The translations under genes and the position numbers were made by a program. From Chytridium lagenaria (lineage: Eukaryota > Chytridiomycota > Chytridiomycetes > Chytridiales > Chytridiaceae), in the NCBI GenBank assembly GCA_025449115.1, contig JAHLKC010000083.1, positions 115,093 to 179,092 of the forward strand: 64,000 bases of DNA, read 5' to 3'. Shown here in pieces: positions 53,593-62,199 of the stretch. Each line of letters opens with the position of its first letter. Position 1 is the stretch's first letter. The notes under the pieces were generated by a model that was not told where the DNA came from, searched no databases, and saw only the letters and a program-made list of their open reading frames with translations.

Positions 53593-55169
53593 ATGTTGAA
53601 GACGTTGGCCTTTGCCGCTGCCCTTGTCCAAGTCGCCGTTGCGGTGCCATCATCCTCCTCTCTCGTTGCGCGCCAGTCGAGCGACTCCAACATCGTTTTC
53701 GACCAAAAGAACCTCGTCATCGAGGATGCCAACTTCGGAGCAGAACTTTCCGTCAGTCTTGCAACCGCACCTACGGCAGCCGCCACAGTTTACCTTGAGG
53801 CGCCAGGACTCAAACTTTCAAAATGTGCGCTTCAATTCAACCCGCAGAATTTCAAAACCCCGCAAAAGATTCGAGTGGTTGCGGGAGGGTCGGATAAAGT
53901 AACGTCATATACTGTTAATGCACAAGTGTTTGCTCCAAACTCTGGAGCTCATCTCGCCAAGAATGCTGTGAATCTTAGTCGAAAGGCTAATCCATCGGCT
54001 ACGTGCTACTCTCATGGTGACCCCCACTACAAAACTTTCGATGGAAAGTACTTTAGTGAGCAAGGCCGTGGTGTTTATTATCTCGTCAAGTCACCGTCTT
54101 TCATCGTTCAGGCTGACCAAGAAAGAGTAAGTATTTTTTTAATGAAATTGATAACTTTGAATACAAACTTACTCTGTTTTGATTATTTATCCAGTGTGGT
54201 GATGGCGTGACTTGCAACCGTGCAGTTGCTATTCAGTTTGGCAAATCCGTCGTATCTCTTGCTGCAGCTAATAGCAGTAAAACGACCATGGCCCTCAAGA
54301 AGGTTTCAGAACAATCCGATGGGATAACAGTAACCGCCAACGACGCTAGAACTCATTACAAGGTTCAGATTGCAGATGGTAGCACTGTTACCGTAGCGAT
54401 TCACCCCTGGAAGAGCACGTATTACTTGGACATCTCCATTAACATTGCCGGTTCGTATCTTGGCAAGACAAACGGTCTCTGCGGAAACTTCAACCAAAAG
54501 GCTGACGATGATGGCGTGAACCTTGCAAGTTACAAGGCTCATTACGCCGAAAACATCTTCCTCACTGGGAAGGGTTTAAATCTCAACGCCAGTGTGCCCC
54601 CTTTAACATACACTTGCAAGATACCTTTACTTAGTGGAGCACTCCCCCCAACTGCAAATGGCGTTTTCGACCCACTCCTCCCTGGCTGGTCGTCTATTTC
54701 TATCCCTGTTCCACCCGCCTCAGTCGTCAACGACTTTATAACAGCATCCATCCAATACGTCGCTGATAACGCTGCCGAAGTCGTCTCCCCAACTCGCATT
54801 CCAGCTGCCCTCGCTGCACCCCTTTGCGGCAGTCTAAAGAGCCTCGATGACTGGTGCACCAAGAACGTTGACGTTGAATACTTTATTGGTGCATGTTCTG
54901 CTGATGTCGCCAACACTGGTGAAATGAGCATTGTCTCCAATTTCCAAAGGTCGTTTTTGACAGCCTGTGCCGCTAAAACGAGCTTTGAGGCCGATTTCGC
55001 AAAAGAGGGGGCGGACGCGATGATGACTAAAGTTGCCCAGTTGTATGCGGGTGTTGGGGATGCAACGTCTAAGGCTATGATGCAGATTCAGATTCAGGCG
55101 CAAAACCCAAAGTTGGAAGACTTTGCAGCGCAGGTTAGGAAGAAAATGGGTGGATTTCGTCGTGTTTGA
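53593..55169 (+). CDS. Secreted VWD-domain protein A
   Basis: Two clean exons (53593-54126 and 54195-55169) give 502 residues without slips. Signal peptide MLKTLAFAAALVQVAVAVP. Residues about 30-110 form a beta-sandwich-like region (NLVIEDANFGAELSVSLATA, LQFNPQNFKTPQKIRVVAGG). A von Willebrand factor type D domain follows, with YSHGDPHYKTFDGKYFSEQG, GVYYLVKSPSFIVQADQER, TCNRAVAIQFGKSVVSLAA and NGLCGNFNQKADDD. The C-terminal third has paired cysteines (APLCGSLKSLDDWCTKN, FIGACSADVANTGEMSIVSN) and a helical end. VWD domains form disulfide-linked networks in mucins and von Willebrand factor. The hallmark CGNF and GDPHY motifs are present. It faces, tail to tail, a GN-repeat gene 519 bp away. I infer an extracellular matrix or adhesive role. 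Confidence 0.85.
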
Positions 55170-55688: not shown

Positions 55689-56524
55689 TTAAGCCACAAC
55701 ATTCTTGCTGACATCCACCTGGAAACCCTGCACAGCACCCAAGTTCGATACAAAGTTCATCCCGTTCGATTGTGCGAGTGCCGCACCGTTTCCAACAATC
55801 GACGCACCAGTCAACTGCTGGTTGACACCAACATTCCCAGCAGCGTTGATTCCGTTCGCTTGAATGCCCGCAATGTTCGATCCAATGCCAAACATGTTCT
55901 GCTGGTTGGTCGCAGCGTTACCAAGAGCGTTGACAGTGTTTTGTTGACCAAGCGCGGCAACGTTACCAAGAATGGAACCAGTGTTGGCTTGGTTGACGGC
56001 CTGGTTTCCTTGGAACGCGACAGTGTTGCCTTGGTTCACGGCAAGGTTGTTTCCAATCGCACCCGTGCTAGCTTGGTTCACACCAGCATTTTGGTTGAAC
56101 AAGATGTTGTTTGATTGCGCCGCCGCAACGTTCCCAACAACCGCACCGTTGAGCAACTGATTTGTCGCAGCGTTCCCGCTAAACACTGCCTGGTTCGCCT
56201 GCGTGAACGCCGTGTTCCCCTGCACGCCAGCAGCAATGTTTTGAGTAGCGGCGTGTTCCCCATGGCGAAGATGCTGTTGCCTTGAACGATGGCGGTGTTG
56301 CCTTGGATGCCGAGAGCGGCGTTTTGGGTGTTGGCGACGTTGCCTTGCATGGCGATTTGGTTGACTTGGAGACCCTTTGCGGCGTTTCCTGCGATGGAGG
56401 CTTGGAATTGCTGGAGACCGCCGACGTTGCCGGCAAAGTTGATGGTGTTGCTCTGCTGCTGGGGAAGGGGAGCGGCGGAGACGGAAAGAGCGAGGAGGAG
56501 GGTGGCAACAGTGGTGAAGAGCAT
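55689..56524 (-). CDS. Secreted GN-repeat protein A, curlin-like beta-solenoid candidate
   Basis: Signal peptide MLFTTVATLLLALSVSAAP, then about 17 repeats of 13-16 residues to a short end (VDVSKNVVA). Typical units are AMQGNVANTQNAAL, GIQGNTAIVQGNSI, GVQGNTAFTQANQA, AFQGNQAVNQANTGS and ALGNAATNQQNMF, consensus G-N-x-A-x-x-Q. The mature part has no cysteine and almost no charge and is very rich in N, Q, A and G. Regular Asn and Gln columns with aliphatic residues between suggest stacked beta-strands. The G-N-x-A-x(2,3)-Q core is that of bacterial curlin repeats (CsgA), though those have a period near 22. About 278 residues. One base is missing near 56252 compared with copy B. A TTTATA element lies at 56617-56622 (minus-strand TATAAA). 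Confidence 0.85.
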
Positions 56525-57325
56525 TTTCGTCTAGGTTGAGGTTTTTTCTAAAGTCTAAAAAGGAGTGAAGATGTTGTTTTTGTGTAGTGAAGATGTTAAT
56601 AAAAACGAGAGGTCATTTTATACGTAGAATACATGAGCTGAGTAGACGATAAGTGGTTTGTTTGGTTTGTTGTTTGTGTTATTTGTTATTTTTTATCCAA
56701 TAAAAAAAGGGACGTTTAAGTTTACAAAAAGTCTTTACCAATTGTTCAGAGCGGCAGGGCTTATACGCGATTTTAATGGGTACATCTCAAGGGGGTTGAA
56801 ATGTTTATGATTGTTTCATAAATTTAAATTGTGCCTTACACTAGGTCGGTGGCATTGGTTATCGTGAATGGAAGCATCGATCGTTATTGCGATCGTGACC
56901 ATCCCGTTGTTTTTAAAGAAAGTTGAATTATAAACATTATCATTAGTTATTTTTCTTAATAGGGTACATCAAAAGAGATGAAAAATACTTTTTGTTAATA
57001 AGTTAATTCAATCGCACTTGTTTTTATTTTAAATAGAGCAAAGAAAAGACATGACGTGAAGTATCGCTTTCAAAATTAAAACGATTACTAAATGACTTTA
57101 CAGTCGAAACATCAAACAAATCGTCTCACATGATTTTCAAGGACGCGTAAAAGTCCACGCATTCTTTTTATTCCCAAATCCAAAGAGTAATCGTCATGTA
57201 TTCAAATCTGCGAAATTTCTATTTTCGTGAGTTTTTTATTGACTTCTTCCAGGATGTATAAAAAGAAGTAATTGCAAATAACTTTTTTTGGTGTCTTATT
57301 TACATTTTTTGGTCACGTTCACCCC
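56525..57325. other. AT-rich spacer upstream of GN-repeat A
   Basis: Holds the GN-A promoter (TATA about 95 bp upstream of its ATG) and the 3' flank of VWD protein B. No gene visible. Confidence 0.65.
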
Positions 57326-59419
57326 TTAATATCTCCATCCAGCCCACTGCCTAGCGTACCCCTGCTGAGGAGCCTGCTGCTGAGCAGCATACCCCTGCTG
57401 GCCCGCCTGAGGGACCTGAGGAACCTGAGGAACGCGAGGAACGTTCCAAGACGGCATCTGCGGGGGCACGTATCCTTGAGGCGCCGGCATAAAGATGTTA
57501 GGGATCTGTTGGGGCCTTGGGATCGCGATAGGAGCGATTTGAGGGATCGCTTGGGGTCTTGGGATGTTGATGGGGGAGAGTTGGGAGGGGTTGGGGGTTT
57601 GGGATGGCGATGGGGGCGACTTGGGGAAGGGGTTTGGGGTTTGGGATGTGGATCATGGGGATGGGTTGAGGGGTGATGGGGATGGGAGCTGGGATGTTTT
57701 GCATGGATGGGATGTAGATTGGGCCTGGGACGGGGATGGGTTGAGGGTTAGGGATTTGGACGGGAGCAGGCACGGGGACGGGTTGCGGTTGCGGGATGGC
57801 GATAGGGACGGGAGCAGGGACGGGACGGGTTGCGGTTGCGGGATGGGAACAGGGGCGGGAGCTGGAACGTGTTCAGGGTTGGGAACTGGAGCGGGAGCAG
57901 GGACGGGGACGGGTTGGGGTTAGGAACGGGAACTGGAGCCGGGGCACTGACAGACCCAGGCACCTGCGCACCAGCCTTGATGATGGCCTTTTCAATTTTC
58001 TCAAACACATTGGCGGCTTTGCAAACAAATCCTTGGGTCAATAGAGAAGGTGCTCACACGACGCCTTTGCAGCACAAGCGGCCAGGAAGGATTTCTGGGC
58101 GTTGTTGACGATGGCCATGTCACCTGTTATGGCGAGGTCGGCGGTACAAGCTGCGATGAAGTGGTTGACATTCAAGTTGGCGGTGCACCAGTCATCGAGG
58201 TCGACGAGGGAGGCGCAGAAAAGGGAGGACTGGGTGGCGGGGATAGGGAGGGATTTGGGGGTGAGTTTGTCGGAGGCGTATTGGAGGGTTGCGGCGATGT
58301 AGTCGTTGATGATGGTTGCGGAAGGGGGGGTGATGGCGACGGGGAGGTAACCTGGAGGGAGGTTGGGGGTCGAGCCATCCGTTGTAGGTGGGGAGCCAAG
58401 GTCGGGCATTTTGCAGCTGAGAGCGGAGATGCAGGCGGGGACGGTGAGGTCGAGACCCTTACCAGACGTGAAGATGTTTTTCGCCGTTAGGAACGCGGTG
58501 AGCGGGGGGTTTGGAACGTCATCTGCAGGGTTGTTGTTGAAAGAGCCACACAGACCATCGGTTTGACTGAACTGCGATCCGGCAATTTCGACAGAGATGT
58601 CGAGGTAGTAGACGCCGTTCCAGGGTAGATGCTGACGGTCATGCGAGTGCCGTCGGCGATCGAGAGTTGATTGGGATTTGTCGGTGTTGGCGTGGGCTGT
58701 GATGCCGGTGAGGGCTGGGGAGGAGGGAGAAGGCGGGCGGATTTGGAGTCAGGGCAGCGGTGAGGGTCATGACGGAGGTGCCGTACTGGATGGCGACGGC
58801 CATGTTGCAGGTAACATCGGTAGCGCACTAGAAACACGCAACGTTGTTAGTGATATTTTTATATTGGAATAAAAGGAATGAAGTGAAGGAAAGCTTACAG
58901 TGCGTTGATCAGCTTGAACGATGAAAGAAGGAGTCTTGACCAAGTAGTAAACACCCTGTCCTTGAGCGCTATACTCCTTTCCATCAAAAGTCTTAAAATG
59001 GGGGTCCCCGTTCGAATAACAAGTCGCCGACGGCATCCCCTTCCTCGTCACCTCCACCGACTCCTTGGCAAGGTGTGACCCAGAGCTCGGCGCAAACACC
59101 TGCGCGTTCAACGAGTACTTGGTGGTTTTATCACTTCCACCCCCAATGACCCTGATCTTTTTAGGAGTACGGTAATCATCGGCGGTGAACGTGAGAGAAC
59201 AGTTGGAGATTGAAGACCGGGGGCTTCGAGGTAGACGGTGGCGATACCAACAGGGGCTGCGGCGAGGCTGAGAGAGAGGTCGGCGCCAGCGTTGATGTCT
59301 TCAATGAGGAGGGACTTGGTGGAGAAGAGGAGTTGGGCGTCGCCACGGGGGACGAGGTTGGTAGGGACCGCGAGGGCCGCTTGAGCGAGCGAGGCGGCAA
59401 GGAAGAGAGATTTGAGCAT
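57326..59419 (-). CDS. Secreted VWD-domain protein B with proline-rich tail
   Basis: Signal peptide MLKSLFLAASLAQAALAVP. The beta-sandwich-like region has SLLIEDINAGADLSLSLAAA, then after a slip TPKKIRVIGGGSDK. The VWD domain has YSNGDPHFKTFDGKEYSAQG, VYYLVKTPSFIVQADQRT, an intron, then VTCNMAVAIQYGTSVMTLTA and DGLCGSFNNN. The Cys-paired C-terminal unit parallels protein A (SLVDLDDWCTANLNVNHFIA). A long Pro-rich tail with PAPVPVPNPNPSP-type repeats follows, ending in AQQQAPQQGYARQWAGWRY and a stop at 57326. Slips occur near 59220, 58700-58480 and in the Pro tail. Head-to-head with GN-repeat B. A TATATAA lies at 59510-59516 (about 93 bp upstream). I infer a wall- or matrix-linked secreted protein whose tail could stick to glycans or proteins. 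Confidence 0.78.
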
Positions 59420-60144
59420 TATGAAAGTTAATTACAATGGCACTGGAAAAGTTTGTACAGTTGAGGTGAGGAGTGCTGAAGAGAAAGAGAAGTCGACGTT
59501 GGGCGTTCTTATATAAAGGATATTTTGACGGATTTTCGTTGAAGTCCTCACGTCCAGCAGGCGCAAGTCCGAACCCATCAACCGATTCGTCATTAAACAA
59601 ATCGTTTCAAACGCATTCCTTCCTCTGCAACATCACCACCAATAAAAACCATTAACTACCATATTGTCTGGCGTATGGAGTGGCTCTTACAACGTTAACC
59701 TCATGTGGTGTTCAAACTTCATTGACTGATTCGTTGAAATCATTTCGAATAATAAAATGGGGGGGGAATTTGATTTTTTCATCCACCGTTTCAGTTAAAT
59801 GAAAATGATATTTAATTGATGAGGCGTTGTTCAGGGGGAAGATGATTGCGTTTGTTTGTGGTTTCAGGATGTTGAACCACTGAGACGACGCGCTTTGATG
59901 ATGAAGTTGAGGGGTTGTTGTCTTCAAACAAAAAATAAAATGTTCATACATGTTGTAAAGATGAATCGCGTCAACATTCAACGGCATGCAAGCGCCAACG
60001 TAACTCTACAAAAAAAAAACATCCCCTAATCCAACCTTATAAAATCCCCTATAAAATCGCAGACCAACACCCCCTTATTACCCACACTTCATCATACATA
60101 CCTGTAGTTTCTTTTCTAATTCTCTAATAATTACCCTAATCAAA
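59420..60144. promoter_or_regulatory. Divergent promoter between VWD protein B and GN-repeat B
   Basis: A 725-bp interval. The left gene has TATATAA at 59510-59516. The right gene has two TATAAAA boxes at 60038-60044 and 60050-60056, about 90-107 bp upstream of the ATG at 60145. Shared regulation of the pair is inference. Confidence 0.6.
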
Positions 60145-60984
60145 ATGCTCTTCACAACCGTCGCCACCCTTCTCCTCGCTCTTTCCGTCTCCGCCGCTCC
60201 CCTTCCCCAGCAGCAGAGCAACTCCATCAACTTTGCCGGCAACGTCGGCGGTCTCCAACAATTCCAAGCCTCCATCGCAGGAAACGCCGCAAAGGGTCTC
60301 CAAGTCAACCAAATCGCCATGCAAGGCAACGTCGCCAACACCCAAAACGCCGCTCTCGGCATCCAAGGCAACACCGCCATCGTTCAAGGCAACAGCATCT
60401 TTGCCATGGGGAACACCGCCGCTACTCAGAACGTTGCGGCGGGCGTGCAGGGGAACACGGCGTTCACGCAGGCGAACCAGGCGGTGTTTAGCGGAAACGC
60501 TGCGACAAATCAGTTGCTCAACGGTGCGGTTGTTGGGAACGTTGCGGCGGCGCAGTCAAACAACATCTTGTTCAACCAAAATGCTGGTGTGAACCAAGCG
60601 AGCACGGTGCGATTGGAAACAACCTTGCCGTGAACCAAGGCAACACTGTCGCGTTCCAAGGAAACCAGGCCGTCAACCAAGCCAACACTGGTTCCATTCT
60701 TGGTAACGTTGCGGCGCTTGGTCAACAAAACACTGTCAACGCTCTTGGTAACGCTGCGACCAACCAGCAGAACATGTTTGGTATTGGATCGAACATTGCT
60801 GGGATTCAAGCGAACGGAATCAACGCTGCTGGAACGTTGGTGTAACCAGCAGTTGACTGGTGCGTCGATTGTTGGAAACGGTGCGGCGCTCGCACAATCG
60901 AACGGGATGAACTTTGTGTCGAATTTGGGTGCTGTGCAGGGGTTCCAGGTTGATGTGAGCAAGAACCTTGTTGGAAGAAAGTAA
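60145..60984 (+). CDS. Secreted GN-repeat protein B, curlin-like beta-solenoid candidate
   Basis: Nearly identical to copy A over its whole length, including the signal peptide (MLFTTVATLLLALSVSAAP), the first repeats (INFAGNVGGLQQFQASIAGN) and the spacing of every unit. Its intact stretch FAMGNTAATQNVAAGVQGNT shows what copy A lost at 56252. Conversely copy B lacks one base near 60607 (AST-G-AIGNN junction) and two near 60825-60837 (NAAGNVGVNQQ junction), where copy A is intact. Corrected length is 280 residues, ending VDVSKNLVGRK. The complementary breaks mean each copy proofreads the other, arguing that both genes are functional in the organism. Two TATAAAA boxes lie about 100 bp upstream. 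Confidence 0.85.
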
Positions 60985-61273: not shown

Positions 61274-62199
61274 ATGAGGCTCACCACCTTCATCGCCCTA
61301 ACCGCCCTCACCCTAGCACTACGCACCACCGCCACCCCAGACCCTCTCCAAGCCCAATTTTTCACCAAAGACGGCGACGAATACATTGCCCTCTACACCC
61401 CACACCCCTGGTCCGCCTATTACGATCGCTTCCTCTCCCCAACCTCCCACGAGATGGGTCTCCACCTGCACAACGGCAACATGGCGTCCATCGTGAATCG
61501 ACTCCACGGGATGGGTGTGAGGGGACATGTGTGGGCTGCCTCTTATAATGATGAGGTCATGAATGCGACGAGGACTGACGGGTGTGTCAAGCTGGATGTG
61601 GAGAGGGGTGTGGTGGTGGTTGGGAGAGGGGAGGTGGAGTGTGGGGGGTTAGAGGTGGGGTTTGGACAAGAGGGTTGGGACGGGGAGGGTGGAGACGGTG
61701 AAGGTTGGAGGGAAGAGGTATATTTATTTAGATGGTGAGTTCTTCTTTTTTTTTATGTCTACCCATATATTATCCACCTGTATTTTTTATGACGTGATAT
61801 AGATGGAATCCCCCTGTTTTCTTTTATTTCAACCCATATATTTAACCACCTGCATTTTCATTTCGTGAAAAAGATGGTATCCCCTGGTCCGACTACACCC
61901 AAATCACGACCATAAAATCCCGTTCCGTGCTTCCAGCCAACATTCCCTCCAGCCACGTCCGCGACCTCTCCCGATGGCTTTCCACCGTGAAACCGGGGTT
62001 CGGGTTTCCCAATGGTCATTCCGTGTGGATTGCGAGTTGGGATGGGGATCGATTTAGGGATGAGATGGGGAGGGAGCCTTGTTTAGGGTTTCGATGGCCT
62101 AGTGGTGTGAATGCGTTTATGGGGATGGATTGTGGGAGGTTGAATGGGGGGTTGTTTGTGGAGAGTTTGGGTGATGTGGGGAGGGAGTGGGAGTTGTGA
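61274..62199 (+). CDS. Small secreted protein, unknown function
   Basis: Signal peptide MRLTTFIALTALTLALRTTA, then ATPDPLQAQFFTKDGDEYIA, HPWSAYYDRFLSPTSHEMGL and RGHVWAASYNDEVMNATRTD, then a Gly/Glu-rich end of exon 1. Exon 2 has DGIPWSDYTQITTIKSRSVL, LSRWLSTVKPGFGFPNGHSV and CLGFRWPSGVNAFMGMDCGR, with a stop at 62199. The intron (from about 61736 to 61873) has two similar acceptor regions, and the phase of the join is unclear, perhaps because a base is missing. I do not recognise the family. It follows the matrix-protein cluster and is also secreted. Confidence 0.6.

Follow-up and report, generated by a model that had tools for sequence, protein, structure and literature searches.

The question raised by this locus is whether two genes of the chytrid Chytridium lagenaria, which encode putatively secreted proteins built almost only of short Gly-Asn (GN) repeats, represent bacterial curlin in a eukaryote or a protein family of its own. 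The window analysed is a 64 kb stretch of DNA forming the end of contig C83 (positions 115093-179092), in a genome of 41.9 Mb and 356 contigs. Both genes were located where the first-pass annotation had placed them: copy A at 55689..56524 (minus strand, 56524 to 55689), whose protein ends in SKNVVA, and copy B at 60145..60984 (plus strand), whose protein ends in SKNLVGRK. Each starts with a signal-like N-terminus (judged by eye) followed by the GN repeats, but neither reading frame is open throughout as assembled, copy A presenting one frameshift near 56253 and copy B being broken near 60608 and again near 60840. Overall, the genes belong to a fungal family that is conserved and matched no Pfam or NCBIfam model; its design is likely that of a solenoid of the functional-amyloid kind, but by sequence it is not curlin.

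The frame breaks look like residual assembly indels, since the comparison of the window with contig C248 (L016) gave 7 mismatches and 44 gap openings over 9932 aligned columns, 34 of the 44 gaps being of a single base and 24 of those 34 falling within runs of one base. Such indels may also account for the mis-spliced look of the deposited gene models, and the NCBI models P0001-P0003, which look mis-spliced around the frame breaks, were left out of the alignments. At least 15 gene copies were found in the genome by sequence searches and were grouped into type A (contigs C83, C17, C248 and C8), type B (C83, C17, C248 and C64) and type C (C151, C67, C147, C16 with two copies, C243 and C189). Intact frames of 834 bases (278 residues, without introns) were present on C17 and C248 (type A) and on C151 (type C), and the 186 open codons of copy A in the window were identical to the intact C17 copy.

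Relatives were sought in three protein searches covering 5.8 billion sequences, with about 8000 candidates scored per search and shared 5-residue words required, under which distant members may have been missed. Among the matches listed, those beyond the three C. lagenaria models were P0004 and P0005, from Phlyctochytrium bullatum (Chytridiaceae), and P0006. P0004 (14 repeats) and P0005 (10 repeats) each continue into a C-terminal DUF3455 domain, and P0006 has 21 repeats; in C. lagenaria one DUF3455 match was found, and no repeats occurred in the initial 118 residues that were read from its gene. No relative was detected with two peptide patterns in GTDB contigs (a single prokaryote scan) or in viral contigs, nor in phages, nor in plasmids queried with the window piece of copy B only. 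Moreover, hmmscan of the two intact copies against Pfam at E up to 10 returned 0 families and no NCBIfam model matched the one intact copy searched, in agreement with the earlier remark that no described fungal family of this kind was known. No fungal protein of this design appeared among those listed by a literature search of titles and abstract openings, and an excerpt of a 2018 review describes adhesins as rarely reported outside Ascomycota and least outside Dikarya.

The repeat array was defined in the intact type A copy (L002, contig C17) with the core pattern G/S/N/Q-N-x-A/G...Q, which gave 19 matches, 17 of them in one unbroken register at 14 or 15 residues, while the two off-register matches at residues 67 and 95 were excluded. 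The estimate of about 17 repeats therefore stood, with the period of 13-16 residues narrowed to 14-15. As N and A/G at 17/17 positions are forced by the pattern, array length was used instead as the unbiased test. The longest chain of N at 14/15 spacing reached 18 in copies A and C, compared to maxima of 10 and 8 over 3000 shuffles, and that of N with A/G two residues on reached 17 in both (shuffle maxima of 6 and 5). In P0004, P0005 and P0006 the N chains comprised 14, 10 and 14 members, respectively, each above all 3000 shuffles. Among the unforced columns of the intact type A copy, position -2 was hydrophobic in 17/17 repeats and position +6 was Q in 14/17. Furthermore, odd repeats presented N(-6) and Q(+6) in 9/9 cases each and even repeats I/V(-2) in 8/8, a difference beyond shuffled labels in the C. 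lagenaria protein (P 0.0001) as well as in P0004 (P 0.0016) and P0005 (P 0.0085), but not significant in P0006 (P 0.17). Given these two alternating classes, the natural unit would be a repeat pair of 28-29 residues, which fits the two sheets of one coil. Self-identity of the intact type A copy was 0.27 at lag 14 and 0.29 at lag 28 over a base of 0.12, the repeats being imperfect (33% mean pairwise identity). Residues 21-278 contained no Cys, 2 K, 1 D and no R, E or H, as expected from the initial description of a cysteine-free chain with hardly any charge. N-glycosylation sequons numbered 0 in four proteins (2.7-5.6 expected) and 2 in the fifth (9.1 expected), in tests that are not independent, as the proteins are related.

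The suggestion that the family might have been transferred from curlin was not borne out. The Curlin_rpt model (PF07012), whose search had been proposed as a check, gave 0 matches in the protein and, at E up to 10, in the whole genome, while 2/14 controls matched (E. coli and Haloferax volcanii, one above the cut-off). The minimal curli repeat is given in an excerpt of PMC3521004 as X6QXGX2NX10, and QxGxxN occurred 0 times in 5/5 family proteins (0.6-0.9 expected). Curlin is also described, in passages of PMC10192328, by paired N-x-Psi-x-Psi-x-Q motifs in a repeat of 23 +/- 5 residues. The paired form was absent in 5/5 proteins, and the single form occurred 4 times in types A and C (P 0.065 or more, about 0.07) and 1, 0 and 2 times in the others (P >= 0.36). 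A relaxed form, N-x-Psi-x-Psi-x-small/polar, was enriched in copies A and C and in P0006, weakly in P0005 (P 0.026) and not in P0004 (P 0.066). Self-identity at the curlin lag of 22/23 was at most 0.14 in the five proteins, and the CsgG channel (PF03783) had 0 matches in the genome at E <= 0.001, with 4/14 controls positive. On the other hand, the GN-x-A-x(2-3)-Q core was enriched over shuffles in 5/5 proteins. The chytrid proteins thus resemble CsgA and CsgB in being repeat-only chains with this core, with Asn/Gln columns beside small or hydrophobic residues and with a predicted stacked beta fold. In contrast, curlin repeats span 22-23 residues and the chytrid half-coils 14 (28-29 per pair), and the chytrid proteins lack the curlin motif, the Pfam match and CsgG while presenting a eukaryotic signal-like start and pairing with a gene for a VWD domain. 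At the sequence level, convergence with curlin would be the simplest account.

The fold predicted by AlphaFold2 was confident, all-beta and built of repeats, where disorder or helices had been named as the outcome expected of a mistaken proposal. When the model was compared by VIA-align, the solved curli subunit (Pontibacter CsgA) ranked second by Z, with a root-mean-square deviation of 8.8, and of the 50 structural matches listed, many were non-amyloid beta-helix proteins, such as alginate lyases, epimerases, an antifreeze protein and the adhesin PfbA. Foldseek gave no significant match in the PDB, FapC (9u4u) appearing in the list at E 0.31. A search of BFVD gave one match below E 0.001 and thereby its best one, the uncharacterised Tetraselmis virus 1 protein A0A2P0VN89 (E 9.8e-4, template modelling score 0.34, 11% identity), as well as two 'Curlin associated' phage proteins (prob 0.51 and 0.90); these viral matches were treated as fold resemblance only. 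A single-sequence AlphaFold2 model (predicted local distance difference test score, pLDDT, of 48) and its Foldseek search were discarded for low confidence. Solenoid handedness obtained from sparse alignments is unreliable, according to an excerpt of PMC10192328. Of the original proposal of a functional amyloid or beta-solenoid, the solenoid part is a prediction that the all-beta repeat model and the rank of CsgA favour, while we infer the amyloid part.

Selection on the family was measured as the ratio of non-synonymous to synonymous substitution rates (dN/dS). Between types A and C it was 0.066 (dS 0.72; 278 codons, no indels), with 0.061 for the repeats alone and 0.142 for the signal region alone (24 codons). 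Over the first 152 codons it was 0.045 for B vs. A and 0.093 for B vs. C, while the C67 copy gave 0.013 against C151 and 0.057 against A. Since dN/dS was low throughout, the family looks functional. A pseudogene reading was rejected on account of the intact copies, these low values and the few substitutions relative to indels between the window and L016. Judged by their flanks, the copies represent about five loci, each present in two to four almost identical versions. The versions C83/C248/C17/C64/C8, C16:30k/C151, C16:110k/C243 and C67/C147/C189 were about 94-99.7% identical and differed by many short indels. Such versions are probably uncollapsed haplotypes or recent duplicates in unpolished sequence, and gene models at these loci may be broken.

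Other repeat and surface proteins were compared with the family. The YadA head (PF05658) is a beta-roll of 14-residue repeats with small and hydrophobic core positions, and thus has the 14-residue period in common with the chytrid repeat. However, PF05658 had no match above the cut-off in the genome, where one chance-level match (E 1.8) fell on C117, which is not a GN locus (3/14 controls matched, one above the cut-off), and an identity with the YadA head was rejected for want of a supporting profile match. SufB and SufD are iron-sulphur assembly proteins without GN repeats, whose core beta-helix showed 3-5% identity in the structural-match rows. Hydrophobins, repellents and Als adhesins are fungal surface proteins with amyloid behaviour; hydrophobins have eight Cys and Als adhesins large globular domains, while the C. 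lagenaria proteins have no Cys and matched no Pfam domain. Weak chance matches of a window piece involved PDX1.3 chains (E 0.07-0.14) and two Pfam models below their cut-offs (E 0.14 and 0.23). Finally, Pseudomonas FapC and FapB resemble the chytrid family in having imperfect repeats in which Asn and Gln are conserved (excerpt of PMC12822426), but FapC folds three linker-joined repeats into a Greek-key arch and the chytrid family has 10-21 short repeats without linkers.

The surroundings of the repeat genes are marked by VWD-domain genes. One, at 57326..59419 (minus strand), is head-to-head with copy B and presents a signal-like start, a Pro-rich (P-x-P) C-terminal region and several frame breaks; Pfam VWD matched one piece of it (E 2.3e-5), together with two genome matches. 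The interval between its start and that of copy B (59420..60144) is possibly a shared divergent promoter, because the same head-to-head order was found at 11 of the 15 copies, namely all 4 of type B and all 7 of type C, with starts about 640-730 bases apart at the six loci where both align. None of the 4 type A copies had a head-to-head VWD gene, and the C8 copy had no VWD match within the fetched 7 kb. The second VWD-domain gene of the window (53593..55169, plus strand) is tail-to-tail with copy A and has a signal-like start and two open pieces, both matched by Pfam VWD (E 5.4e-6 and 1e-7; piece limits by alignment), which look like two exons separated by an intron at about 54135-54195. VWD matches at E <= 0.001 fell at 14 places in the genome; 12 of these had a GN-repeat gene no more than 5 kb away, and for the other two the distance was 11 and 27 kb. 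We infer that the two kinds of genes are co-expressed. At type C loci the VWD pieces matched the window VWD proteins at about 30-70%, whereas intact type A and type C repeat proteins were 95% identical; therefore, the repeat protein is more constrained than its VWD partner. A further gene with a signal-like start (MRLTTFIALTALTLAL) was observed at 61274-61738 of the window, and also adjoins the A/B locus on C17, C248 and C64. The type A copy on C8 is adjoined by a long frame rich in Pro, Thr and Ser (L010, 799-2280), which has a signal-like start and possibly encodes a wall protein.

Taking the repeats, their two alternating classes, the conservation, the selection and the gene pairing, all of which were computed directly, we tentatively propose, at slightly under an even chance, a secreted structural protein of Chytridiales, in which a two-sheet beta-solenoid stacks into extracellular wall or matrix fibres with VWD partners. 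After cleavage of the signal, the chain would wind into a flat solenoid of the predicted fold, each 14-residue repeat forming one strand and a Gly-Asn turn and two repeats one coil of 28-29 residues. The Asn/Gln columns and the small-residue column would make up the stacked core of a solenoid with 17 half-coils, or about 8.5 coils. At the solenoid ends, the exposed edge strands would pair with the next molecule to give extracellular fibres, as in curli, whose subunits pair through such strands according to an excerpt of PMC10192328. Together with VWD proteins expressed from the putative shared divergent promoter, these fibres would strengthen the wall or matrix. As metazoan VWD proteins form multimers, the VWD partner could cross-link or cap the fibres, while in P. 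bullatum the solenoid would carry DUF3455 as cargo. The fuller version of this proposal, a convergent eukaryotic counterpart of curli polymerising end to end into cross-beta wall or matrix fibres, with co-expressed VWD proteins and DUF3455 decoration in Phlyctochytrium, is plausible but doubtful.

A secreted beta-solenoid that stays a monomer or small oligomer, acting as an adhesin or as a polysaccharide- or ice-binding surface, is a possible though rather improbable alternative, in which the repeats of the P. bullatum fusions would serve a globular domain as its spacer or as a module for binding to the wall. The many non-amyloid beta-helix proteins among the 50 structural matches favour it, and the C-terminal DUF3455 of two P. 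bullatum proteins fits a spacer or anchor, but no regular Thr or aromatic ladder was seen by eye in the column table; from sequence and model alone, it is hard to tell apart from the fibre-forming solenoid. That the chain is instead a Gln/Asn-rich matrix protein of low complexity and for the most part disordered, with the solenoid as an AlphaFold2 artefact, is unlikely. The bias of AlphaFold2 on perfect repeats (PMC11795689), the low single-sequence pLDDT and the lack of a significant Foldseek match in the PDB would agree with it; however, the repeats are imperfect, unlike those of PMC11795689, and unbroken N arrays in 5/5 proteins, alternating classes in two genera and dN/dS values down to 0.013 argue against disorder.

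The horizontal transfer of a true curlin from bacteria appears very improbable. Although the GN-x-A-x(2-3)-Q core is shared by all five proteins, the relaxed motif is clearly enriched in 3/5, and both the solved CsgA and the two curlin-associated phage proteins occur among the structural matches, the Curlin_rpt match, QxGxxN, the paired motif, the lag of 22/23, CsgG and a GTDB relative with the two peptide patterns were all missing. Lastly, a helical repeat protein like the transcription activator-like effectors (TALE), related to BurrH, can be given almost no weight. The profile of alignment A3 matched the BurrH chains 4cja/4cj9 (E 6e-13) via a similar AGNxGGxQ segment, but phmmer with L004, P0004 or P0006 alone gave no PDB match up to E 10, and self-identity at lag 33 was at or below background in 5/5 proteins. 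Moreover, the prediction is all-beta and basic residues are few, unlike in a DNA binder. The relationship was rejected, as single sequences did not match and the period was wrong.

The GN-repeat family therefore points to a possible curli-like fibre in fungi. If both the fold and the fibres are true, a eukaryote would have evolved, independently and with another coil length, a curli-type architecture, that is, an Asn/Gln-rich beta-solenoid almost free of charge. This would put to the test which functional-amyloid features are a physical necessity. It would also provide a handle on the protein part of the chytrid wall or matrix.
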